Shown here: piece by piece, positions 9,208 through 24,771 of the stretch | How positions within the stretch are numbered: position 1 is the stretch's first letter | Layout: every line of letters starts with the position of its first letter | Assembly: GCF_019683755.1 (NCBI RefSeq) | Contig: NZ_JADGHT010000002.1 | Location: forward strand, 1-51,895 | Source of the DNA: Thermogemmatispora sp. | GTDB lineage: Bacteria > Chloroflexota > Ktedonobacteria > Ktedonobacterales > Ktedonobacteraceae | Length of the DNA stretch: 51,895 bases | Direction of reading: 5' to 3' | Position numbers and translations under genes: made by a program | Notes under the pieces: generated by a model | Databases searched by the model: none | What the model was told of the DNA's origin: nothing | What the model saw: only the letters and a program-made list of their open reading frames with translations

Positions 9208-10401
9208 CTAGCAGATGCGTGGAAGTGGATCACCGACTAGCATATCGAGGACGCGCATGCCACCGATCTCAGTGCGCAGAAAGACAAGGCCCGGCGGCTC
9301 CGCCTGAACACTGCCGATCATGGCCGCCTCGCGTCCCAGTGGATGCGCGCGCATGACTGCCAGTGCTTCTTCCGCTGCCTCAGATGCCACCACAGCTAAC
9401 AGCTTGCCTTCGTTGGCAATGGTCAGCGGGTCAAGCCCCAGGATCTCGCAGGCGCCGCGCACTCCGGGATGCACCGGGATCGCCTGTTCATCCAGACCAA
9501 TGGCGACCTCTGAGGCCAGGGCCATTTCATTGAGGGCGGTGGCCACGCCCCCCCGGGTGGGATCTTTGAGACAGTGCAGACGCTCGCCGACGCTCTCTAA
9601 CAAGGCCGCTACCAGCGTATGCAGTGGCGCCGTATCGCTCTGAACATCGGTTTCGATGTCTAGCGCCTCGCGCGCCAACATGATGGCAATGCCGTGGTCG
9701 CCAGCACTGCCGCTGAGGAGGACAATATCGCCAGGCTGCAGACAGGTTTGCCCCAGCGGCCAGCGTGCGCGTCGCAGACCTACTCCAGCCGTGTTGATGA
9801 AGACTCCGTCGCCTTTGCCGCGCTGGACGACCTTGGTGTCGCCAGTGACAATGGCTACCCCCGCATCATTGGCCGCCTGCTGCATGGAGGCCACAATGCG
9901 ACGTAGATCAGCGATGGGGAAGCCTTCCTCTAGAATAAAGCTCGCCGACAGATAGAGCGGCTGGGCTCCGGCCATCGCCAGATCGTTGATGGTGCCGTGC
10001 ACGGCCAGCTTGCCAATGTCGCCGCCGGCGAAGAAGAGCGGACTGACGACATAGCTATCAGTGGTAAAGGCCAGTTGTAGGTTGCTCCCATCGAGCGAGA
10101 AGACCGCCGCATCGTCGAGCGCATCAAGCAAGGGATTCGAGAAGGTTGGGGCGAAGACGCCCTCAATCAGGTTATGGGTAGCCTTGCCACCGCTACCGTG
10201 ACTGAGTGTGATGCGCTCATCGCGTAAATAGAACTTATGCCGGCGCGCCTGTCGGACGCGCTCGATTTTCTGCAGGACAGCGTCCAGTCGCGCCGCCTCC
10301 TGCTCAGAACTGGGCTTGACCTCCATTTGAATCCACCTTCCTTCCTTGTTCCGCCTGACTTCTCTTTTGCCGGTTGCCCTCAGCGGCTCATTCAAGGACA
10401 A
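9208..10401 (-). CDS. hypE: Hydrogenase maturation protein HypE
   Basis: SHGSGGKATHNLIEGVF, GDTKVVQRGKGDGVFINTAGVG, C-terminal PLPRIC cysteine tail. Confidence 0.96.
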   Translation of the reverse strand: MSLNEPLRATGKREVRRNKEGRWIQMEVKPSSEQEAARLDAVLQKIERVRQARRHKFYLRDERITLSHGSGGKATHNLIEGVFAPTFSNPLLDALDDAAVFSLDGSNLQLAFTTDSYVVSPLFFAGGDIGKLAVHGTINDLAMAGAQPLYLSASFILEEGFPIADLRRIVASMQQAANDAGVAIVTGDTKVVQRGKGDGVFINTAGVGLRRARWPLGQTCLQPGDIVLLSGSAGDHGIAIMLAREALDIETDVQSDTAPLHTLVAALLESVGERLHCLKDPTRGGVATALNEMALASEVAIGLDEQAIPVHPGVRGACEILGLDPLTIANEGKLLAVVASEAAEEALAVMRAHPLGREAAMIGSVQAEPPGLVFLRTEIGGMRVLDMLVGDPLPRIC

Positions 10402-10458: not shown

Positions 10459-11598
10459 TTAGGGCGTCTGCGAGAGGCTACGCAGGTGGTCACGCTCGGC
10501 AGCCATCGAGAAGCGACCATAATTGTAGTAGGCTGCGCAGGCGCCTTCGGGCGAAACCATACAGGTCCCAATGGGTGTTTCGGGAGTACAGGCAGTACCA
10601 AAGACTTTGCACTCCCAGGGCTTGATGACGCCTTTAAGCACCTCGCCGCACTGGCAAGCTTTGGGATCAGCCACGCGTAGACCCGGTACCTCGTAGCGTA
10701 ACTCGGCATCCCAGTCGGCAAACTCGGACCGTAGCTTGAGGGCGCTATGGGTGATGAAGCCCAGGCCGCGCCATTCAAAGAAGGGTCGCAGTTCCATTGT
10801 GCGGGCCATTGCTTCGAGAGCGCGCACGTTGCCCTCGGGACGCACCACGCGCGTGTACTGGTTCTCGACCTCCGCTCTCCCCTCGCTGATCTGTTTGACC
10901 AGCATGTAAACGGCCTGGATGATGTCGAGCGGCTCGAAGCCTGCAATAACCACCGGCTTGTGATGATCACGGGCGATGAAGGTATAGGGACGCATGCCGA
11001 TGACCATGCTGACATGGCCAGGACCAATGAAGCCGTCCAGGCGCAGATCGGGCGAGTCGAGAATGGCTTTGATGGCAGGGATAATGGTCACATGATTGCA
11101 GAAGACGGAGAAATTCTTGATGCCTTCCGCTTTGGCCCGCAAGAGGGTCACCGCTGTCGAGGGAGCCGTGGTCTCAAAGCCGATGGCGAAAAAGACCACC
11201 TGGCGCTCGGGATGCTGGCGTGCCAGCTTGAGGGCGTCCAGCGGCGAGTAGACGAAACGTACATCGGCTCCATCGGCCTTGGCGTCGAGGAGACTGCCTT
11301 TCGAACCGGGCACGCGCATCATATCGCCAAAGGTGGTGAAGATGACACCATCAGTACGGGCAATGGCAATGGCGTCGTCGATGCGTCCCATCGGCAGTAC
11401 ACAGACAGGGCAGCCTGGCCCATGCACTAGATCGATGCTGCGCGGTAGTACATCCTCGATGCCATGTTTATAGATGGTATGAGTATGACCGCCACAGACC
11501 TCCATGAATTTCAGTGGGCGCCCATCGCTGAGGCGAGCGATCTCGGCGGCGATGCGTTTGGCCAATTCAGGATCACGATATTCATCGACGAATTTCAT
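10459..11598 (-). CDS. hypD: Hydrogenase maturation protein HypD
   Basis: FMEVCGGHTHTIYKHGI, LVHGPGCPVCVLP, GFETTAPSTA; conserved Cys. Confidence 0.97.
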   Translation of the reverse strand: MKFVDEYRDPELAKRIAAEIARLSDGRPLKFMEVCGGHTHTIYKHGIEDVLPRSIDLVHGPGCPVCVLPMGRIDDAIAIARTDGVIFTTFGDMMRVPGSKGSLLDAKADGADVRFVYSPLDALKLARQHPERQVVFFAIGFETTAPSTAVTLLRAKAEGIKNFSVFCNHVTIIPAIKAILDSPDLRLDGFIGPGHVSMVIGMRPYTFIARDHHKPVVIAGFEPLDIIQAVYMLVKQISEGRAEVENQYTRVVRPEGNVRALEAMARTMELRPFFEWRGLGFITHSALKLRSEFADWDAELRYEVPGLRVADPKACQCGEVLKGVIKPWECKVFGTACTPETPIGTCMVSPEGACAAYYNYGRFSMAAERDHLRSLSQTP

Positions 11599-12316
11599 CG
11601 CTGTTAGCTCTCACTTTCTCTGCGGCTAAATGGGCCTGCACCAGCTCGAGGAGAGCATGGTAGACGGTGGCCTGTGCCTCCTGAATGCGCGGGATATGAT
11701 CGCCCGGCGAAATGATGCAGAAGTCCACTGCCGGCGAGCGTCTGGCTTTGCCGCCATCGTAGCCAGCCAGAGCCACGGTGAGTAAGCCCTGTTTTTTGGC
11801 CTGCTCGAAGGCGCGCAAGACATTGAGTGAGTTGCCACTGGTGGAGATGCCCACGGCAATGTCTCCCGGGTGCCCGAAGGCGATGATCTGACGCGTAAAG
11901 ATATTCTCAAAGCCGACGTCATTGCCTATTGCGGTGACGACAGCGATGTCATTGGCGAGGGCAATAGCCGGCAAGGGGCGCCAGTGGGCAACGGGAGGAT
12001 GGAGCAGATCGGTGACGAGGTCTTGGGCGTCGGTCGTGCTGCCGCCGTTGCCGAAGGCTAGCAGGGTCGCCCCAGCAGCAAAGGCGCGCGCCATCGCCGC
12101 GGCTGCCGCCAGCAGCGTTTCACGCGCGGTGGCCAGGGTAGCCCGGCGCAGGGCGATCACATCACGGCACTTCTCCAGGGTAGAATGTTGGACCTGGTTG
12201 AGGACCTCGTCAAGGCTGACCCTTCCTCCTGCAAACAGATAGGGATAAAACAGGCGATCGTACTCCGACCCCTGGGTGTCAGTGTCATTGGCCTCGTTAT
12301 TGGCACGGTCAGTCAT
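11582..12316 (-). CDS. SIS-domain phosphosugar isomerase-like protein, canonical GmhA-type loops (SIS1)
   Basis: LLAFGNGGSTTDAQ and GISTSGNSLNVLRA; overlaps hypD start. Confidence 0.85.
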   Translation of the reverse strand: MTDRANNEANDTDTQGSEYDRLFYPYLFAGGRVSLDEVLNQVQHSTLEKCRDVIALRRATLATARETLLAAAAAMARAFAAGATLLAFGNGGSTTDAQDLVTDLLHPPVAHWRPLPAIALANDIAVVTAIGNDVGFENIFTRQIIAFGHPGDIAVGISTSGNSLNVLRAFEQAKKQGLLTVALAGYDGGKARRSPAVDFCIISPGDHIPRIQEAQATVYHALLELVQAHLAAEKVRANSDEIRR

Positions 12317-12439
12317 GGCTCGCTCGCTTCCTGTGTCATGCTAGCTGCTCTGCTGCCTATCGCGTACGCCTACGCGCTCTTCAGGAGCGCCACAGAACGC
12401 AACAGGAACGGGCCAGCGTTGGATAGGGCCAGGCTCTTC

Positions 12440-12742
12440 TCACTCAGGCAGACCCCGGTGGCTCCTGGCCAGCTTGTCAACGTCAAGGCGCTCCAGTGCG
12501 ACGCCGCCATGCATGAGTAGGCGATCACCGGGCCGGACCGTGCCTAGCAAGGTGATGTCAACCATGGCCTCGCCCAGTCCAAGGCTGACGCAGGCCATGC
12601 CAGCCTCTTCATCGACGCTAAGCACAGTGACCGCAATCGCTTCATCGGCACAGGTAGGACAGTGCCCCTCGGGATCAGGCTGACAGAGCGGTCGCTGCGC
12701 TGTCAGCGGTGTCCGCTGCTTCTGTTCAGATTCCGCCATCAT
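12440..12742 (-). CDS. HypC-like protein lacking the N-terminal MC-GIP motif
   Basis: GHCPTCADEAIAVTVLSVDEEAGMACVSLGLGEAMVDITLLGTVRPGDRLLMHGGVALERL aligns by eye with the HypC beta-barrel; ATGA overlap with upstream SIS2 stop sets start at 12742. Confidence 0.75.
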   Translation of the reverse strand: MMAESEQKQRTPLTAQRPLCQPDPEGHCPTCADEAIAVTVLSVDEEAGMACVSLGLGEAMVDITLLGTVRPGDRLLMHGGVALERLDVDKLARSHRGLPE

Positions 12743-13350
12743 TGCAGTAAGCCCTCGTGTTCGAAAAAGACGTGCACTAGCTCCCACAGCACATGATACA
12801 GGGTTTCATGAATCTCTTGCACAATGAAGGGGTCATCGCTGGCTACCACAAAGCGATAGTCTACAGTCTCAGTAGTGATTAGCCCTCCATCGCCGCCGAG
12901 CATGGCCAGGGTGAGCAGTCCCATACGGCGCGCCTGCTCCAGGGCGGCCTGAACATTGGCACAGCGTCCGTCTGGCGAGAACCCCAGGGCAATATCTGAT
13001 GGGCGCGCCAGCACACGTAGCTGCTCGCTAAAGGGCATCTCAGGCCGTCCGCCCGCCATCAGGCCGCTGAGGGTCGCGCTGTCGTTGGTGAGCGCCAGCG
13101 CTGGCAAGGCGCGCTTGCCCACAATGACCGGATGGACGAACTCCACCGAGACATGTTGCGCGTCGGTGGCCCAGGCCCCATTGCCAAAGGCCAACAGGCG
13201 CCCGCCCTGATGGAAGCGGCGGGCCATCGCCCAACAGGCTTCGGCTATGCGCGGCGCCTCGTGCTCAAAGAAGGTCGCTGGCAGGCTTGTACTGAGCGCA
13301 AAGCGCTGCTCCAGTATTGCCCGCAGCGGTGCCTGCTCATCGGCTGTCAT
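12739..13350 (-). CDS. SIS-domain protein with degenerate catalytic/phosphate loops (SIS2)
   Basis: LLAFGNGAWATDAQ and GFSPDGRCANVQAALEQARRMGLLTLAMLGGDGG; paralogous to SIS1. Confidence 0.8.
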   Translation of the reverse strand: MTADEQAPLRAILEQRFALSTSLPATFFEHEAPRIAEACWAMARRFHQGGRLLAFGNGAWATDAQHVSVEFVHPVIVGKRALPALALTNDSATLSGLMAGGRPEMPFSEQLRVLARPSDIALGFSPDGRCANVQAALEQARRMGLLTLAMLGGDGGLITTETVDYRFVVASDDPFIVQEIHETLYHVLWELVHVFFEHEGLLQ

Positions 13351-13377
13351 GCTGCGATTCCCTCTCTCTGCTCATGC

Positions 13378-13650
13378 TCACTCAATCTGACTGGAGTGTA
13401 ACAGTTTCAACTCATCGGTGTAGACGTCGCCCATCATCTGGAGCGCCTTGAGGGTTTCCCTCGCTTCGGCTTCATCAATTTTGCTCATGGCAAAGCCGAC
13501 GTGGATAAGCACCCAGTCACCGGGGGCAATGCCTTCGGAGCGCACCAGGGCGACACTGACGTTGCGCTTGACGCCCGAGACGTCAACGCGCGCAATCGAA
13601 TTGGCGTCGTCGACAATTTCAAGCACTTGACCAGGAATTCCCAGACACAT
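13378..13650 (-). CDS. hypC: Hydrogenase assembly chaperone HypC
   Basis: MCLGIPGQVLEIVDD...PGDWVLIHVGFAMSKIDEAEA. Confidence 0.97.
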   Translation of the reverse strand: MCLGIPGQVLEIVDDANSIARVDVSGVKRNVSVALVRSEGIAPGDWVLIHVGFAMSKIDEAEARETLKALQMMGDVYTDELKLLHSSQIE

Positions 13651-13773: not shown

Positions 13774-16185
13774 TCAGGCGCGGCGCCCTTCTCCGGCTGC
13801 CAGGCGGGCAGCGGCGACGGCCAGTTGTCCCAGACTCAGGCCGCCATCGTTGGGAGGCACACGGCGATTGAGATAGACTGCGAAGCCGCTGGCCTGCAGC
13901 TCGCTGACAAGGTCTTCGAGCAGGAGACGGTTCTGAAAGGCGCCGCCGCTGAGAGCCACCTGAGCAAGACCAGTGCGCTCCCTGATTTGTTGACAGAGGT
14001 CGGAGAATATGGCTACTAGCGAGCGATGGAAGCGCCGGGCAATGCGCGCTAGCTCATAGCCACGCTGAAGATCCTCGACCAGAGCGGCAAGCAAGGGGGC
14101 TACATCAATCTGAAGCGGTCCCTGCGGCGGGCGCAGGATGACATAGGGATAAGACGGCTGTTCGTCAGGTGGAACGCTGCTGGCGAGCATTTCCAGTTCG
14201 ATGGCAGCCTGGCCCTCGTAAAGCACCTCGTCTCGCAGGCCCAGGATTGCCGCCACGGCGTCGAAGAGGCGTCCGAGGCTGGAGGTGGGCAGCGAGTTGA
14301 GGCCTCGGGCAATCATCTGCGCCAGGATGCGCCAGGTGCTGCGGTCGAGACGCCGCGCGAAGGGAATGTCCAGAGTCAGGAAGCGCTCGCCATAGGTACG
14401 CGCCAGATAGACAGCGGCCATGCGCCACGGCTGGCGGACGGCCTGCTCTCCTCCTGGCAGCGGCACATAGGCCAGATGAGCCAGACGCTCAAAGCCATAG
14501 AGATCAGCAAGCAGAACCTCGCAGCCCCAGATGGCTCCGTCGGGACCATAGCCTGTGCCGTCGGCGGCAATGCCGATCACCGGCCCATTCAGACCGTGCT
14601 CGGCCAGCACGCTGGCAATGTGGGCATGATGATGCTGAACGCCGATGCGTGGCTCCAGGCCACTGTCCAGCGCATAGCGGGTCGCCAGATAGTCGGGATG
14701 GAGATCGTAGGCCACGGCCTCGGGCACGATGTCAAAGAGGCGCTGGAAATGCTGGATGCCTTCGCGGAAGGAGGCCAGGGTCTCCAGGTTCTCCAGGTCG
14801 CCGATGTGGTGCCCTAGGAAGGCTTGCCGCCCCTTACCCAGACAGAAGGTGTTTTTGAGATGGCCGCCGCAGGCGAGCACGGGACGGGGCAGCTCAAAGG
14901 CGAGGGGGATCGGCTCAGGGACGTAGCCCCGCGAGCGCCGGAAGAGTTGCTCACCGCCAGCAACCAGACGCGTGACCGAGTCGTCGCAGCGCATGTGGAT
15001 GAGGCGATTGTGGGTGAGCATGCCGTCCGCAATGGCTGCCAGACGCCGGCGAGCCTCGTCATCACGGTAGGCAATCGGTTCGTCGCTGATGTTACCGCTG
15101 GTCATGACCAGTACCGGCAGGCGCCCAGGGGCTATGGCTTGGGCGAAGGCCTGCAGCAGCAGGTGATGAAGCGGGGTGTAGGGAAGCATCAGCCCAAGTG
15201 TGCGATAGCCCGGGGCCACAGCAGGCGCTACGGGAGAGTTGGGCCGCTGCTCGAGCAGGACAATGGGACGACGCGGCGACTGCAGGAGGGCCGCCTCAGC
15301 TTCGCTGATATAGCAGAGGCGCTGCGCCGTCTCCAGGTCGGGAACCATGAGGGCAAACGGTTTGGCTTCGCGATGCTTGCGCCTCCGCAGCCGCTGGACA
15401 GCCTCGGCATTCAGGGCATCACAGGCCAGATGGTAGCCTCCCAGCCCTTTGATGGCGAGAATTGCGCCGCGCGCGAGCAAGCGGGCTACCTGCTCGATCA
15501 GCGTGGCTTCCTCGCCTATCTCACCGTTGCTCCTGGCTGCTAGCTCCAGAGCGTGCAGCTCCTCATCCCAGAGTTCCAGCGCGATCTGTGGCCCACATTG
15601 CGGGCAGGCATTGGGCTGGGCATGAAAACGTCGATTGGCTGGGTCTTCGTACTCGGCACGACAGGCCGGGCACATGCTGAAGACGCGCATCGTCGTCTGT
15701 TCACGATCGTAAGGAATATCCTGAATAATAGTGAAGCGCGGCCCGCAATTCGTACAGTTGATGAAGGGATAGCGATAGCGTCGATCTGCCGGATCAAATA
15801 GCTCACGCAGGCAAGCGGTGCAGGTGGCCATGTCAGGTGAGATCAAGGCAGCGCGCTCGTTCTCCTCCCGGCTCTCTGTGATCACAAAGGCCGTCTCCTG
15901 GCGCAGCGGAAGTGTTTCGACTGTCACACGCTCGATGCGCGCCAGCGGCGGTGCTTCCATCTGCAGGCGCGCGCGGAATTGGGTCAGCGCCTCCTCCGGC
16001 CCTTCGATCTCGATAGTCACCCCGCGGCTATCATTGAATACAAAGCCAGCCAGATGGAGACGTTGGGCCAGGCCGTAGACAAAAGGACGAAAGCCAACGC
16101 CCTGCACAAGGCCTTTCACGGTGAGACGCTGCCGCTGCCGTGCCGTCATAGTGGCTGGCGCTCCTCCTGGCACACCCTCGCTCAT
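13774..16185 (-). CDS. hypF: Carbamoyltransferase HypF
   Basis: N-terminal acylphosphatase domain, CTAC/CTNC/CPAC/CPQC zinc motifs, YrdC and Kae1-like domains. Confidence 0.97.
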   Translation of the reverse strand: MSEGVPGGAPATMTARQRQRLTVKGLVQGVGFRPFVYGLAQRLHLAGFVFNDSRGVTIEIEGPEEALTQFRARLQMEAPPLARIERVTVETLPLRQETAFVITESREENERAALISPDMATCTACLRELFDPADRRYRYPFINCTNCGPRFTIIQDIPYDREQTTMRVFSMCPACRAEYEDPANRRFHAQPNACPQCGPQIALELWDEELHALELAARSNGEIGEEATLIEQVARLLARGAILAIKGLGGYHLACDALNAEAVQRLRRRKHREAKPFALMVPDLETAQRLCYISEAEAALLQSPRRPIVLLEQRPNSPVAPAVAPGYRTLGLMLPYTPLHHLLLQAFAQAIAPGRLPVLVMTSGNISDEPIAYRDDEARRRLAAIADGMLTHNRLIHMRCDDSVTRLVAGGEQLFRRSRGYVPEPIPLAFELPRPVLACGGHLKNTFCLGKGRQAFLGHHIGDLENLETLASFREGIQHFQRLFDIVPEAVAYDLHPDYLATRYALDSGLEPRIGVQHHHAHIASVLAEHGLNGPVIGIAADGTGYGPDGAIWGCEVLLADLYGFERLAHLAYVPLPGGEQAVRQPWRMAAVYLARTYGERFLTLDIPFARRLDRSTWRILAQMIARGLNSLPTSSLGRLFDAVAAILGLRDEVLYEGQAAIELEMLASSVPPDEQPSYPYVILRPPQGPLQIDVAPLLAALVEDLQRGYELARIARRFHRSLVAIFSDLCQQIRERTGLAQVALSGGAFQNRLLLEDLVSELQASGFAVYLNRRVPPNDGGLSLGQLAVAAARLAAGEGRRA

Positions 16186-16886
16186 GATCCTGCGCCTCCC
16201 ATTATGTATGGGGTCTCACGGGCGGTGGTCACGGAGCGCTTGCTGGTAAAGGCCAGCAGCCAATCACACCAGGCGTCCAATCCCTCGCCACTGCGGCAGC
16301 TCAGCGCGAAGATCTGCAGCCCTGGGTTGACGGCCAGCGCCTGAGTGCACACCCGCTCGGGATCGTAATCCACATAAGGCAAGAGATCCATCTTGTTGAG
16401 TACCAGCACCTGGGCAGCGGCGAAGATCTGCGGATACTTAGCCGGCTTCTCATCACCCTCGGTCGTGGAGACCACGACCGCCCGCAGGTCCTCGCCCAGG
16501 TCCCAGGCCGCTGGGCAGACCAGATTGCCGATGTTCTCGATGAAGAGCAGGTCTAGCCGCTGCAGATTAAGGGTCTCCAGGGCATCACGCACCATATGGG
16601 CCTCCAGGTGGCAGGCCCCACGCGTATTGATCTGCACCACCTGCGCTCCGGCGGCCTCGATGCGTTCGGCGTCCAGGCTGGTTTCAATGTCGCCTTCAAT
16701 TACCCCTACAGCCAGTTGTCCGCGCAGGCGGGCAACGCTCCGTTCGAGCAGGGTGGTCTTACCCGCCCCTGGACCGCTCATCAGGTTGATGCAGCGCACT
16801 CCAGCCGCTGCCAGCCGTCGCCGCACATCTGCTGCAATCTCCTCATTGGCCGCCAGTATGTTTCTGGCAATGGTCACTCTGGGCAT
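16182..16886 (-). CDS. hypB: Hydrogenase nickel incorporation GTPase HypB (no His-rich N-terminus)
   Basis: LMSGPGAGKTTLLERSV P-loop, VGVIEGDIETSLDAERIEAAGAQVVQINT, ENIGNLVCPA; ATGA overlap with hypF. Confidence 0.97.
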   Translation of the reverse strand: MPRVTIARNILAANEEIAADVRRRLAAAGVRCINLMSGPGAGKTTLLERSVARLRGQLAVGVIEGDIETSLDAERIEAAGAQVVQINTRGACHLEAHMVRDALETLNLQRLDLLFIENIGNLVCPAAWDLGEDLRAVVVSTTEGDEKPAKYPQIFAAAQVLVLNKMDLLPYVDYDPERVCTQALAVNPGLQIFALSCRSGEGLDAWCDWLLAFTSKRSVTTARETPYIMGGAGS

Positions 16887-16913: not shown

Positions 16914-17285
16914 CTACTCCTGGCTTCCCTGCTCGCCGTCAGCCCCGACCTCCATATCGAGGATCTGCAGCTCGGTGCCCGAGAGAATGCGCGTGGACCA
17001 GGTGCCGCAGGTGGGACAGCGCGCGACGAAGTCCATGACGGTAAAGGTACGGGCACACGGCTCACACCAGGCCCGATGCGGGGTGATTTCGATGGTCAAC
17101 CGCGCTCCGGTAAGGGTAGGCGAGAGCGAAGCCAGCATCTCAAAGGCGAACTGAAGCGCGTCCACCAAAACCCCACTGGCTTCGCCCACACGCAGATGGA
17201 CCGCGCGCACCCGCTCTACACCGCACTCTTCCGCCCGGGCTTCCACCGCTTCAATAATGCTCTGGGCAAGCGACAGCTCATGCAT
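16914..17285 (-). CDS. hypA: Hydrogenase nickel incorporation protein HypA
   Basis: MHELSLAQSIIEAVE; CEPC...CPTC zinc motif. Confidence 0.95.
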   Translation of the reverse strand: MHELSLAQSIIEAVEARAEECGVERVRAVHLRVGEASGVLVDALQFAFEMLASLSPTLTGARLTIEITPHRAWCEPCARTFTVMDFVARCPTCGTWSTRILSGTELQILDMEVGADGEQGSQE

Positions 17286-18162: not shown

Positions 18163-18501
18163 TCACTCCTCTGCAGCGAGCGGCTCCACTTCTTCTGGGA
18201 AAAAGAAGAAGCGGTGACCTGGCAGGATGCGCTCGTCCCATTGTTCTCTACCGGGGTCATCATCGAGGGTCACCACCAGGTAGAGGCGGTTCTCAAAATC
18301 CTGCTGGATGACTTCGACGCGCCCGGTGCGCCCGTCCAGCAGCAGATCAAAGGCATCGGCCAGGTGTTCCCGAGGCGCTCGCCCAGGGCAGAGGCGTACA
18401 CGTGTACCTGCCCTTACCTGATGACCAGCGATCGTAATGGTCTCCGGCGGGCGGGAATCCTCCCCAGGAAAGACCCAGCCATCGTTAGCAGTCAGGCTCA
18501 T
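18163..18501 (-). CDS. Hydrogenase-cluster conserved hypothetical protein (112 aa)
   Basis: Intact ORF overlapping neighbour starts/stops; operon position. Confidence 0.8.
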   Translation of the reverse strand: MSLTANDGWVFPGEDSRPPETITIAGHQVRAGTRVRLCPGRAPREHLADAFDLLLDGRTGRVEVIQQDFENRLYLVVTLDDDPGREQWDERILPGHRFFFFPEEVEPLAAEE

Positions 18502-19567
18502 GACCTGCCTCCTCCAGAGAGCGCAGTCCGCGAATGGCGCCGTGGAGCTGTCGCCACTGCTCCGGAGTCATATGCTCGATCTGCTCCAGCACAGCCTGTC
18601 CGCGAGCATCGCCACGGCGAATCTGCTCTTTCTCCTCGTCCGTCAGGGTCAAGATACGCAGGGCCAGCAACTCATCGATCTCAGTGCCGTCGAAGAGTGG
18701 AGCTGGACTTTCTGGGGCAATCTGTGGATAGTCGTAGAGGATGATTGGCGAGGAGAGCAGGCTATCACGCTGCCCCGGCTCGCCGACCAGAACCGGCCAG
18801 GTGCCGCGGTTCTGACAGGAGGCTGCGATCTGGCTCAACGCCTCGGGCGGCTCCATGAGGGAGACAAAGGCGCCTCCTTCTACCTGGAGGATAGTATGCG
18901 TCGAGACGCAGGCCGAGAGCAGCGCCTCCTGCGCGCGCAGAGTTTCCGGGGCTTCTACTGCGGTCGTGTTGACCACACTCACACGTAGCTTCCAGAGACC
19001 CTGATGTTGCGGTACCGCTTCGGCGGCCAGGCGGACCTCGCCGCTCAGTGTTCGCCCCTCGCGCACGATGCTTCCTGATCGGTCGCTCGCTCTTCCGACT
19101 GGCGTCTCCTCTATCAGGCGCCGTGCCGGAAAGGCGAAGGACAGGCGCTGTTCAGCCTGAAGCAGATCAGGCAGCGGCAACCCCATCACGCTCACGCTGC
19201 GTTCGATTCCTTCCTCCCACGTATGTTCTAAGGAACTTTGCACCCACAGCGGTGCTCTCTCTTGCGACTGGCCTGGCTCCTCTGCCCCCACGCTCTTCTC
19301 AACCTCTGCACGCCAACAGCGCATCAGATGAAGAAAGCGTACAGAGACGGCGAGGCGCGGATCAGCATCTGTCTCGGCCTCGAGCAGACATTCTGTCTGC
19401 ATGCACCAGGGTTCCACCTCGCCACCCGCCTCACTGTAGGCCCGTGGATAGATGACCCCATAGGTCCAGCGCTGACGGTTCTTGAGCGCCGAGTGACGGT
19501 ATGGATAGAGCAGATAGCCCTCATAGAGCACCGCTTCGGCAATAGCCTGGATCGCTTCCAGCTTCAT
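18485..19567 (-). CDS. Hydrogenase-cluster hypothetical protein (360 aa; EAVLYEGYLLYPYRHSALKNRQRW motif)
   Basis: Intact ORF, ATGA overlap with the upstream DUF6084 gene; operon position. Confidence 0.85.
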   Translation of the reverse strand: MKLEAIQAIAEAVLYEGYLLYPYRHSALKNRQRWTYGVIYPRAYSEAGGEVEPWCMQTECLLEAETDADPRLAVSVRFLHLMRCWRAEVEKSVGAEEPGQSQERAPLWVQSSLEHTWEEGIERSVSVMGLPLPDLLQAEQRLSFAFPARRLIEETPVGRASDRSGSIVREGRTLSGEVRLAAEAVPQHQGLWKLRVSVVNTTAVEAPETLRAQEALLSACVSTHTILQVEGGAFVSLMEPPEALSQIAASCQNRGTWPVLVGEPGQRDSLLSSPIILYDYPQIAPESPAPLFDGTEIDELLALRILTLTDEEKEQIRRGDARGQAVLEQIEHMTPEQWRQLHGAIRGLRSLEEAGHEPDC

Positions 19568-21758: not shown

Positions 21759-23555
21759 TTACGACACACGCCCGAAGGTCGGAGAATGCACGACTTGCAG
21801 CTCTTTGCCGCTGCCTAGATACATATGGACCCCACAGGGGAGGCACGGATCGAAGCTGCGCACTGCGCGCATAATATCGATGCCCTTAAACTTGTCGGGG
21901 CCATTCTCCTCGAAGATCGGCGTATTCTGAACCGCATCCTCATAGGGGCCTGGCGTCCCATAGATATCGCGCACGCTGGCATTCCAGGGCGTGGGCGGAT
22001 AGGGGTGATAGTTGGCAATCTTACCGTTCTCGATCACCAGATGATGCGAGAGCACCCCGCGCACGGCCTCATGGAAGCCGCAGCCGATCGCCTCCTTGGG
22101 CACCGTAAAATCGCTCCAGGTCCTCGTGCGACCCGCCCGGATCTCCGCCAGCGCCTTCTCCACGCAATAGAGGGCCACCGCCGCCGCATAGGCCTGGAAG
22201 TACGAACGGGCCCGATCGCGCTCCAGGGCATTGCTCCACTTCGGAATCTTCCACTCAAACTCGACCTCGGGTTTCAGCGCCGTCTTCGGCAAGCGGATCT
22301 TAACACTGTGCCCGGTGGCCTTAATGTAGCCCCCCAGATCGACCAGGCCAGCCAGCGCCGTCACCCACAGGCGCGCCAGCGGCCCCCCGCCGGTATCCAG
22401 CGCCAGATACTGCCCCGTGCGCTTATCGTACCAGCGCGGCGACATCACCCAGCTATACTTTCCCTTGAAATCGCGCTTCTGCGGCTTGGGAATCGTCGTT
22501 TGGTTCCAGGGATGGCGCCGATCAACCGGATTGCCTAGCGGATCACGATCGACAAAGATGCGCTCGTTCTCCCAATCCTCGTAGTAGGAGCTGCCCAGCA
22601 AAATGCGGATTCCCAGATTGATATCGACCAGGCTGGTTGTCACTAGCTCGCCATCGACCACCACACCCGGTGTCACGAACATCGCCCGCCCCCACTTATC
22701 CATCGTGCGATAATCGTAATCGCAGACGTCAGGGTCCTGGAACGAGCCCCAGCAGCCCAGCAGAACCCGCCGCTGGCCTACCTTTTCATAGCCAGGCAGG
22801 GCCTGATAGAAGAAATCGAAGAGGTCATCGTGTAAGGGGACGACCTTCTTCATGAACTCCACATACTTCATCAGGCGCACTAGATAATCGGTGAAGAGCT
22901 GGACCGTCGCCACCGTGCCCACGCCGCCGGGATAGAGCGTCGACGGATGCACATGGCGCCCCTCCATCAAGCAGAACTTCTCGCGCGTCAGGCGACTCAT
23001 CTGCAGCGCCTCGCGATAGAACTCGCCCGTGAAGGGATTGAGCGCCCGCATAATATCGGCGATCGTGCGATAGCCGTGGTCTTTAGCATGTGGAGCCTCG
23101 GTCTTCTGCGCCAGCTCCCAGACCCCGGGATTGGTCTCACGCACCATCTGCTCGCAGAAATCAACCCCGACCAGATTCTCCTGAAAGATGTTGTGGTCAA
23201 ACATGTACTCCGCCGCCTCGCCGAGGTTGAGAATCCACTCGCCGAGAGCCGGCGGCTTCACGCCATAGGCCATATTCTGCGCATAGACCGAGCAGGTAGC
23301 GTGGTTATCCCCGCAGATCCCACAAATGCGGCTGGTGATGAAATGCGCATCGCGCGGGTCCTTGCCCCTCAGAAAGATGCTATAGCCGCGGAAGATCGAC
23401 GATGTACTGTAGCACTCTACTACCTGTCGCTTCTTAAAATCAATCTTGGTATAGATTCCCAAGCTGCCGACAATGCGCGTAATCGGGTCCCAGGCCATTT
23501 CAATTAACTGGCCAGGCTCAGCCGGGGCAGCCTGACGTCGTACCTCAGTGGTCAT
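21759..23555 (-). CDS. hhyL: [NiFe] hydrogenase large subunit, group 1h (actinobacterial/high-affinity) type
   Basis: L1 motif RICGICGDNHATC, L2 motif SFDPCLPCGVHMYLG followed by a C-terminal extension; SD before ATG at 23555. Confidence 0.95.
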   Translation of the reverse strand: MTTEVRRQAAPAEPGQLIEMAWDPITRIVGSLGIYTKIDFKKRQVVECYSTSSIFRGYSIFLRGKDPRDAHFITSRICGICGDNHATCSVYAQNMAYGVKPPALGEWILNLGEAAEYMFDHNIFQENLVGVDFCEQMVRETNPGVWELAQKTEAPHAKDHGYRTIADIMRALNPFTGEFYREALQMSRLTREKFCLMEGRHVHPSTLYPGGVGTVATVQLFTDYLVRLMKYVEFMKKVVPLHDDLFDFFYQALPGYEKVGQRRVLLGCWGSFQDPDVCDYDYRTMDKWGRAMFVTPGVVVDGELVTTSLVDINLGIRILLGSSYYEDWENERIFVDRDPLGNPVDRRHPWNQTTIPKPQKRDFKGKYSWVMSPRWYDKRTGQYLALDTGGGPLARLWVTALAGLVDLGGYIKATGHSVKIRLPKTALKPEVEFEWKIPKWSNALERDRARSYFQAYAAAVALYCVEKALAEIRAGRTRTWSDFTVPKEAIGCGFHEAVRGVLSHHLVIENGKIANYHPYPPTPWNASVRDIYGTPGPYEDAVQNTPIFEENGPDKFKGIDIMRAVRSFDPCLPCGVHMYLGSGKELQVVHSPTFGRVS

Positions 23556-23742
23556 TGTGCTCTCTCCTTTGCTGAACAGGCACAAGCGAGCCAGAGAGAG
23601 GCTGGCCAAACTCTTCTCGCTTCCACTCAATTAGCAAGCGCCCAGACAAGCAAGCAACGCAAGAAGAGACTGCAGAGCACAGAGTGAGGCTCAGCAGGAG
23701 CAAGGCGCTGCTGCCTGTCAGAGGATTTCCGCTTGTTCTTCC

Positions 23743-24771
23743 CTACCAGCGCGGCTGATAACCGGTTACCAACTCCTGGCCCTTACGGCGCCACGAAGGT
23801 TCCTTATTGAGCGTCGACCTAGTAATATTGCGCAGAGCACGAATCGCACCGCCGTAGGCGCCAGCGATACCAGTTGACAACTTGGCGCCGGGTGGCTCAT
23901 CCATGAAGGGCATAAACTTATCGGGGAAGCCAGGCATCGTACAACCAATGCAGATCCCGCCCACGTTAGGACAGCCGCCGATGCCGGCCATCCAACCGCG
24001 CTTTGGTACATTGCACTGTACGACTGGACCCCAGCAGCCGAGTTTCACCAGGCACTGAGGGGCCCCATACTCGGTGGCAAAGTCGCCCTGCTCATAGTAA
24101 CTGCCGCGGTCGCAACCCTCATGAACGGTTTTGCCAAAGAGCCAAGTGGGGCGTCCGAGGTCATCGAGGGGGATCATTGGCGCCAGACCCACCGCCTGGT
24201 AGAGCAGGTAGAGGAGCGTCTCCATAAAGTTATCCGGTTGCACAGGGCAGCCAGGAACATTGACAATAGGGATACCGGCCCACGACTTCCAGGAATGGCC
24301 CAGGTAGTCAGCCAGGCCCATTGCTCCAGTAGGGTTACCCTGCATCGCATGGATACCGCCGTAGGTAGCACAGGTTCCGATGGCCACCACCGCCCAGGCT
24401 TTCGGCGCCAGACGATCGATCCACTCGCAGGTTGTGATCGGCTGACCGGTTGCCGGATCGGTTCCCAGCGCGGCCCAATAGCCTTCTCGCTTGATACGCT
24501 CGTTGGGGATCGAGCCTTCAACAACCAGCACAAAAGGATCAAGCTCGCCGCGTTCAGCCTGGTACCACCAGGTCATAAAGCTGTCACCGCCCAACTCATA
24601 GGCGAGGACAGGATTGTGCAAATAGACACGGGGAAGTCCCGGAATGGCTCCCAGGATCACATCTTCCAGGCTTGGCTGACTGGCCGCAGTAATGGAAACC
24701 GAGTCGCCATCACAGCCCAGGCCCGCAGTGATCCAGACGATATGGACCGCCTCCACGCGCGTCCTGGTCAT
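23743..24771 (-). CDS. hhyS: [NiFe] hydrogenase small subunit, group 1h type
   Basis: VWITAGLGCDGDSVSITAASQPSLEDVI, later Cys ligands (GTCATYGG, VPGCPVQPDNFMETL, GGCPNVGGICIGCTMPGFPDKF); AAGGAGG SD; no Tat signal. Confidence 0.95.
   Translation of the reverse strand: MTRTRVEAVHIVWITAGLGCDGDSVSITAASQPSLEDVILGAIPGLPRVYLHNPVLAYELGGDSFMTWWYQAERGELDPFVLVVEGSIPNERIKREGYWAALGTDPATGQPITTCEWIDRLAPKAWAVVAIGTCATYGGIHAMQGNPTGAMGLADYLGHSWKSWAGIPIVNVPGCPVQPDNFMETLLYLLYQAVGLAPMIPLDDLGRPTWLFGKTVHEGCDRGSYYEQGDFATEYGAPQCLVKLGCWGPVVQCNVPKRGWMAGIGGCPNVGGICIGCTMPGFPDKFMPFMDEPPGAKLSTGIAGAYGGAIRALRNITRSTLNKEPSWRRKGQELVTGYQPRW

Follow-up and report, generated by a model that had tools for sequence, protein, structure and literature searches.

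A 51,895-nucleotide stretch of Thermogemmatispora sp. DNA (assembly GCF_019683755.1, contig NZ_JADGHT010000002.1, positions 1 to 51,895; hereafter the window) carries an operon for a group 1h [NiFe]-hydrogenase and its Hyp maturation proteins. Between hypC and hypD, this operon contains a three-gene module encoding two GmhA-like SIS proteins, SIS2 and SIS1, and, between them, a variant HypC (the HypC-like protein). We consider it probable that SIS1 and SIS2 are unequal subunits of a GmhA-derived enzyme, with the HypC-like protein as a third subunit, and that this enzyme acts in assembly of the Fe(CN)2CO group. The reading draws on complementary loss of active-site residues between SIS1 and SIS2, on natural gene fusions, and on the association of the module with hyp operons and with hydrogenase-bearing genomes. 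An earlier note on the window, made from its letters alone, had described two SIS and two HypC genes within the hyp operon, and the genes, coordinates, motifs and overlaps that it gave were all confirmed, on the minus strand. It had also proposed that SIS1 and SIS2 form a hetero-oligomer, to which the HypC-like protein serves as partner or adaptor; a mixed oligomer with such a partner is what the complementary residue loss, the fusions and the strict gene association described below support.

SIS1 and SIS2 retain complementary halves of a GmhA active site

In GmhA, the substrate phosphate rests on serine loops. The zinc ion is bound by H61, E65 and H183 from one monomer and by Q175 from its neighbour (PMC5387315), the equivalents in B. 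pseudomallei GmhA being H64, E68, Q175 and H183 (PMC5705639). A docking model takes the phosphate loops and Gln173 from one monomer and Glu66 from the other (PMC7705670), and in crystal structures three chains build each site (PMC11056994). Here, S55 and S119-S124 follow the numbering of E. coli GmhA approximately, and the zinc residues follow that of the B. pseudomallei enzyme.

SIS1 of the window (11582..12316, minus strand; Pfam SIS_2, 1.5e-19) keeps both phosphate loops, GNGGSTTDA and STSGNS, together with Q175, and lacks H64 and E68. SIS2 (12739..13350, minus strand; Pfam SIS_2, PF13580, 2.3e-12) keeps the zinc trio, in DAQHVSVEF and LYH, and has lost the phosphate-binding serines, the counterpart loops reading GNGAWATDA and SPDGRC. 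The same division recurs among homologues. In SIS1, S55, S119, S121 and S124 are kept in 107/107 sequences and Q175 in all 106 having letters at that position, and the complete zinc trio is never kept: Asp mostly takes the place of H64, which is always lost, and E68 is usually lost as well. In SIS2, H64, E68 and H183 are kept in 106/106, no more than two of the four serines remain (the usual residue is Asp at S121 and Cys or Asp at S124), and position 175 is often Lys. Residue loss is complementary in every one of 106 SIS1-SIS2 pairs, a set that includes some organisms fetched twice (105 pairs are distinct in sequence). The pattern used to scan contigs contained H64 and E68, which biases the retention seen in SIS2; rows fetched without the pattern, tallied separately, give SIS2 with H64/E68/H183 in 29/29, SIS1 with H64 in 0/30 and SIS1 with all four serines in 30/30. 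Thus, the earlier note was right that SIS1 keeps both GmhA loops and that SIS2 has diverged in both. Its contrast between a canonical and a degenerate copy does not hold, however, since the zinc residues for catalysis are found in SIS2 and the loops for the substrate in SIS1.

Because the residue groups of the GmhA site come from different subunits, SIS1 and SIS2 are expected to build a single composite active site between them. Wherever an interface is productive, SIS1 would give the phosphosugar loops (S55 and S119-S124) and Q175, and SIS2 the metal-binding catalytic trio H64, E68 and H183, while the opposite SIS1-SIS2 interface would be dead. With one kind of live site per pair, a hetero-oligomer would be obligatory if the enzyme works. 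Position 175 of SIS2 also covaries with position 68 of SIS1: where the former is Lys, the latter is never acidic, and where the former is Gln, the latter is nearly always Asp or Glu. This pattern fits a contact across the dead site, but it follows clades and is only suggestive.

Hydrogenase-linked SIS proteins also occur singly, in a set comprising Cupriavidus, Afipia, Bradyrhizobium, Sphingopyxis, Mesorhizobium, Methylocystis and two Chloroflexota. These single proteins always keep the zinc residues and the Gln, and the serines too, except for one Ser-to-Ala change in Methylocystis (STSGNA). Their clusters yielded no HypC-like gene. Phylogenetically, SIS1, SIS2 and the hydrogenase-linked singles form one clade apart from GmhA, within which SIS1 and SIS2 make up two monophyletic groups (97 and 99 in the Shimodaira-Hasegawa-like approximate likelihood ratio test, SH-aLRT). 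The simplest history would be that a complete single SIS was duplicated and the copies lost opposite halves. It is very improbable that the two genes serve ordinary sugar (heptose) metabolism and merely hitchhike in the operon. Although NCBIfam gmhA models match both proteins, their scores against TIGR00441 (136.5 bits for SIS1, 97.4 bits for SIS2) lie below the GmhA cut-off of 209.45, their clade excludes GmhA, and in different phyla the SIS genes keep company with hydrogenase genes, some of them being fused to a HypC paralogue.

The motif (L/F)YP(F/Y/W)L lies near the N terminus of 79 of 80 SIS1 proteins, and of most hydrogenase-linked single SIS proteins; SIS1 of the window has an N-terminal YPYL, and further SIS1 or single examples are at L034, L036, L159, L162 and L163 (L and G numbers are our handles for loci and genomes). 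The motif is C-terminal in L133 and L135 and is lacking in unfused SIS2, and it is possible that it serves as a docking peptide. At L163, on a Methylocystis parvus plasmid, the gene order is hypF-SIS-hypD, and a hypC between hypF and hypD was neither annotated nor detected.

The HypC-like protein has the HypC fold and a conserved Cys/His pair

We found exactly two HypC-family genes in the window's genome, one for a canonical HypC beginning MCLGIPG (13378..13650, minus strand; PF01455, 99.4 bits) and one for the HypC-like protein (12440..12742, minus strand). The latter matches PF01455 at 1.8e-08 and 34.8 bits, above the Pfam cut-off of 28.5, and scores 25.5 bits against NCBIfam TIGR00074, below the cut-off of 48. 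It has the HypC fold: its predicted model (predicted local distance difference test, pLDDT, 82; predicted template modelling score, pTM, 0.62) matches HypC from the HypCDE/HypCD complexes (3vyt_A, TMt 0.91, root-mean-square deviation 1.0; 3vyr_A also matches). The N-terminal Met-Cys of MC-GIP is missing, and the protein carries an N-terminal C-x7-C-x-T-C extension. An internal C-x-[TS]-C is present in 70 of 73 HypC-like proteins, 68 of which have a third Cys upstream, and C28, C31, D33 and H78 are invariant across 24 homologues.

H78 is the counterpart of the conserved HypC histidine (H51 in E. coli), and this position is His in 70/70 HypC-like proteins. In HypC, iron is considered to be bound by Cys2 and His51 jointly with HypD (PMC12134894). 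Because C31 and H78 are 47 residues apart, within one residue of the 48 that separate Cys2 from His50 in the window's canonical HypC, and because both are invariant, the iron-binding Cys/His pair has probably been retained, behind an N-terminal extension with further cysteines. The protein is thus of the HypC family by fold and by its histidine, yet it lacks the N-terminal Met-Cys. The earlier note had it losing the essential N-terminal MC-GIP; the loss of the motif stands, but an outright loss of the function of its cysteine does not, given an invariant C31 and H78 spaced as in HypC. Public records label such genes HypC, HybG or HupF (Thermus L033, 7591-7818; Mycobacterium L035, 11183-11893), which masks both the variant and its fusion to SIS.

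A retained Cys/His pair could also mean that the HypC-like protein is a second Fe(CN)2CO carrier for the large subunit, in a client-specific or oxygen-protective chaperone comparable to HoxL/HupF with HoxV/HupK, in which the SIS pair is only an oligomeric holder. The HypC paralogues HoxL and HupF do serve O2-tolerant hydrogenases (PMC12134894), and SIS2=HypC-like fusions exist. We nevertheless regard such a chaperone as unlikely, as it leaves unexplained why the SIS subunits keep exactly two halves of one site and why a single SIS occurs without a HypC-like protein. If SIS1 and SIS2 instead form a composite enzyme, as we favor, the role that we propose for the HypC-like protein is that of a stable third subunit, which would recruit the enzyme to the HypC-HypD(-HypE/F) complex and contribute its own Cys/His iron-binding pair.

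Gene overlaps, fusions and structure prediction

In the window, SIS2 and the HypC-like gene meet in an exact ATGA start/stop overlap, and 17 nucleotides (11582-11598) are shared between SIS1 and hypD. In some other genomes, genes of the module are fused. SIS2 and SIS1 form a single protein in Thermus thermophilus SG0.5JP17-16 (392 residues), in several Actinomycetota metagenome-assembled genomes (MAGs) and in several Chloroflexota (L123, L126, L128-L130); in genomes with this fusion the HypC-like gene, when seen, adjoins hypC and hypD. SIS2 and the HypC-like protein form a single protein in M. intracellulare (236 residues, labelled HypC) and at L111, and at L063 the HypC-like protein and SIS1 share one stop-free frame, in which SIS1 may have its own start. 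In G073 (L125), all three are joined in operon order in one 538-residue frame, which lies between hypF and hypD and adjoins a 1h hydrogenase. Sulfobacillus, where the frame is disrupted late in SIS1, and L058, whose frame is suspicious, were not tallied as clean fusions. These arrangements are good evidence that SIS1, SIS2 and the HypC-like protein are likely to act jointly.

An AlphaFold2 model of the natural SIS2=SIS1 fusion L116, built from 8 sequences (pLDDT 83, pTM 0.84), best matches GmhA in the PDB when its domains are taken singly, and its two domains together match tandem-SIS chains (4s1w, TMt 0.69). The PDB matches of SIS1 and of SIS2 include both GmhA and DiaA. DiaA binds DnaA with the same fold, and by analogy the SIS pair could be a non-catalytic regulator or scaffold that senses a sugar phosphate, as a sign of carbon or energy status, and gates HypC-HypD. 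SIS domains often act as sensors, and nutrient limitation induces the group 1h hydrogenase in Thermomicrobium roseum (PMC6776052). However, a sensor needs its loops and not an invariant metal site in its partner, whereas the SIS2 trio is as invariant as the SIS1 loops, and the single-SIS versions keep a complete site. We therefore consider a purely regulatory role unlikely.

The module follows hydrogenase genes across phyla

A close SIS2 orthologue was found in 17 of 41 genomes sampled from the window's order, and all 17 keep the order hypF-hypC-SIS2-HypC-like-SIS1-hypD, incomplete only at contig ends; the orthologues in named Thermogemmatispora are 86-91% identical to SIS2 of the window. Conservation of the module is far beyond chance. 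A scan of public genomes returned at least 553 relatives, and in the 80 loci examined SIS1 adjoins SIS2 in 79 and a HypC-like gene was seen, using wider profiles, in 70. The loci without one are mostly SIS2-SIS1 fusions, contig-end cases or Pseudonocardiales pairs away from hyp genes. The three-gene module was found in Chloroflexota, Actinomycetota, SAR324, Thermus and Sulfobacillus. In Mycobacterium intracellulare and Sulfobacillus, its clusters contain Huc-type (group 2a) NHL-repeat and NifU genes and, judged by this gene content, would be group 2a. With these clusters and its occurrence in Thermus, the module extends beyond group 1h.

Four Pseudonocardiales loci (L077, L082, L086 and L117) have a SIS2-SIS1 pair without a detected hyp neighbor, with HypD elsewhere in three of the four genomes. 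At L086, the pair comes after a divergent helix-turn-helix regulator gene.

Two phylum samples were used to relate the module to the hydrogenase; their genome counts were made by hand from search tables, and the samples are phylogenetically non-independent and include incomplete MAGs. In 201 Chloroflexota genomes, a 1h large subunit (called at ≥75% identity) is present in 17, of which 12 have the SIS pair, 1 has a single SIS and 4 have none. The 247 Actinomycetota genomes include 25 with a 1h large subunit (≥67%), 19 with the module and 6 without it. Combined, 31/42 sampled 1h genomes have the module, one of them (G286) counted on the HypC-like protein and SIS1 alone. SIS2-profile matches of at least 130 bits occur in 19 genomes of the Chloroflexota sample, and HypD is found in 18 of these 19 versus 64 of the 182 others (p 4e-7). 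Conservation of the SIS pair with group 1h hydrogenases, on which the earlier note had staked its proposal, was thus found when surveyed.

HypX and the source of the CO ligand

In assembly of the Fe(CN)2CO group, CN comes from HypE/F, the iron is held on HypC-HypD, and HypX makes CO from formyl-tetrahydrofolate. With C. necator HypX as the query, the window's genome (G000, 89.6% complete) gave no match at E≤1e-20. HypX is present in 1/31 module genomes versus 4/10 without any SIS (Fisher p 0.009, from small counts not corrected for phylogeny), and among 26 named module genomes it occurs only in G230. The absence of HypX, which the earlier note had remarked on, therefore extends to most module genomes. 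The HypX-positive genomes without SIS are G266, G371, G414 and, as a fragment, G169. In the first three, HypX lies inside the hydrogenase/hyp cluster, which has no SIS or HypC-like gene; the 1h/hyp clusters in which HypX replaces the module are L139 (HypX-hhyS-hhyL), L142 and L144. G230, of the Nitriliruptorales, has a SIS2=SIS1 fusion (L152, G230:C124) plus HypX, with no hyp neighbor detected in the stretch examined.

Thermogemmatispora T81 has the module (L038), HypX was not found in it, and it consumes H2 aerobically (PMC6776052); its CO must therefore come from another source. The source of CO where HypX is lacking is an acknowledged open question (PMC12134894). We think it likely that the module contributes to the Fe(CN)2CO step, and the unit would work while this group is being assembled for high-affinity, aerobically matured hydrogenases. 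CO, or a one-carbon (C1) precursor of it, is our leading specific guess for the product, because CO is the step that is missing an enzyme where HypX is absent. The module could then provide the CO ligand by a second aerobic route that does not need HypX: SIS1-SIS2 would use its metal site to turn a sugar phosphate into an enediol(ate), this would yield a C1 unit (CO or a precursor), and the HypC-like protein would pass the C1 unit or Fe-CO to HypD. The near-absence of HypX from module genomes, its standing in for the module within 1h/hyp clusters and the aerobic H2 respiration of T81 all favor such a route. We put it forward tentatively, as possible rather than probable, since the HypX-free CO route of anaerobes could serve here too and known SIS enzymes isomerise or hydrolyse, none of them decarbonylating.

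Several further points weigh against a composite enzyme at this step, or against CO as its product. The chemistry of GmhA, aldose-ketose isomerisation, itself releases no CO; we know of no CO-releasing SIS enzyme, SIS chemistry ending at the enediol. G230 has both the module and HypX, though unlinked, C. necator has HypX together with a single SIS (in strain H16, the SIS is H16_RS31885 of the AH cluster, and HypX belongs to the MBH cluster), and three Actinomycetota 1h genomes, G425 (L145), G281 (L147) and G251 (L149), have neither the module nor detected HypX. The HypX counts are small and phylogenetically non-independent, and the active-site geometry is borrowed from GmhA papers, one of which reports a docking model. 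Finally, SIS1-SIS2 distances correlate at r 0.91 in a mirror-tree comparison, but those of SIS1 and HypD correlate at 0.92; this correlation was dropped as support for a specific SIS1-SIS2 complex. The CO-ligand idea, which the earlier note had raised, thus gains from the absence of HypX in most module genomes and its replacement of the module in three clusters, and loses from the three Actinomycetota genomes with neither.

The surrounding operon

On the minus strand, the operon runs hhyS-hhyL-NifU-like-DUF5947-DUF6084-two ORFs-protease-hypA-hypB-hypF-hypC-SIS2-HypC-like-SIS1-hypD-hypE. The group 1h small subunit (23743..24771, minus strand) was assigned from its sequence, and the large subunit (21759..23630, minus strand) from both group 1h motifs, L1 TSRICGICGDNH and L2 SFDPCLPCGVH, as given in PMC10080006. 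Two open reading frames (ORFs) between these genes and hypA, at 18485-19567 and 18163-18501, have no Pfam match. HypA (16914..17285, minus strand) and HypB (16182..16886, minus strand) match NCBIfam models (TIGR00073/TIGR00100 for the pair), and the ORF at 13774..16185 (minus strand) is homologous to carbamoyltransferase HypF genes annotated in reference records. Beyond SIS1 lie HypD, the Fe(CN)2CO assembly scaffold (10459..11598, minus strand; TIGR00075, 522 bits), and HypE (9208..10401, minus strand; TIGR02124, 447 bits).

Significance and comparison with known systems

In 1h loci, a published gene map labels the SIS gene 'putative phosphoheptose isomerase (gmhA)', with no role given (PMC5900883), much as the earlier note had mentioned, and a SIS cluster appears in a survey of hydrogenase neighborhoods (PMC12727194). 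The literature searched, with subscription journals outside the search, yielded no mention of a role for the SIS module, of the split site or of the HypC variant. If our reading is correct, many atmospheric H2 oxidisers, among them a species whose aerobic H2 consumption has been demonstrated, have this module acting at the Fe(CN)2CO step, and it offers a clear natural case of an interface active site divided between duplicated genes. In many genomes, module proteins annotated as 'phosphoheptose isomerase' or HypC are probably misnamed. The reading predicts that SIS1 and SIS2 assemble together, that each pair of interfaces has a single live site, and that CO or HypX would give rescue.

The module resembles GmhA (2XBL, 5I01) in fold, in the placing of active sites at interfaces, in the phosphate loops GNGGS and STSxxS, present in SIS1 and not in SIS2, and in the zinc ligands, of which SIS2 alone has the trio and SIS1 has Q175, so that the whole set is guaranteed only in the pair. 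It differs in using two unequal, hydrogenase-linked genes with a half-site each. SIS1 and SIS2 should not be filed as GmhA, because neither reaches the GmhA cut-off and neither alone appears to have the GmhA site. The HypC-like protein shares with HypC, HybG and HupF its fold, a Cys/His pair at nearly the same spacing and a location near hypD, but it lacks MC-GIP, has a C-x(n)-C-x-T-C extension, is sometimes fused to SIS and occurs alongside a canonical HypC. HypX, like the module, is an extra maturation factor of aerobes, and the two appear to alternate in the same gene clusters, yet their folds are unrelated. HoxL/HupF with HoxV/HupK likewise combine a HypC paralogue with a helper for O2-tolerant hydrogenases, although HoxV and HupK resemble the large subunit and not SIS proteins. 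The single SIS proteins in the hydrogenase clusters of Cupriavidus, Afipia and Bradyrhizobium belong to the same clade and occupy the same slot before hypD, but carry an essentially complete site in one protein and have no HypC-like partner.

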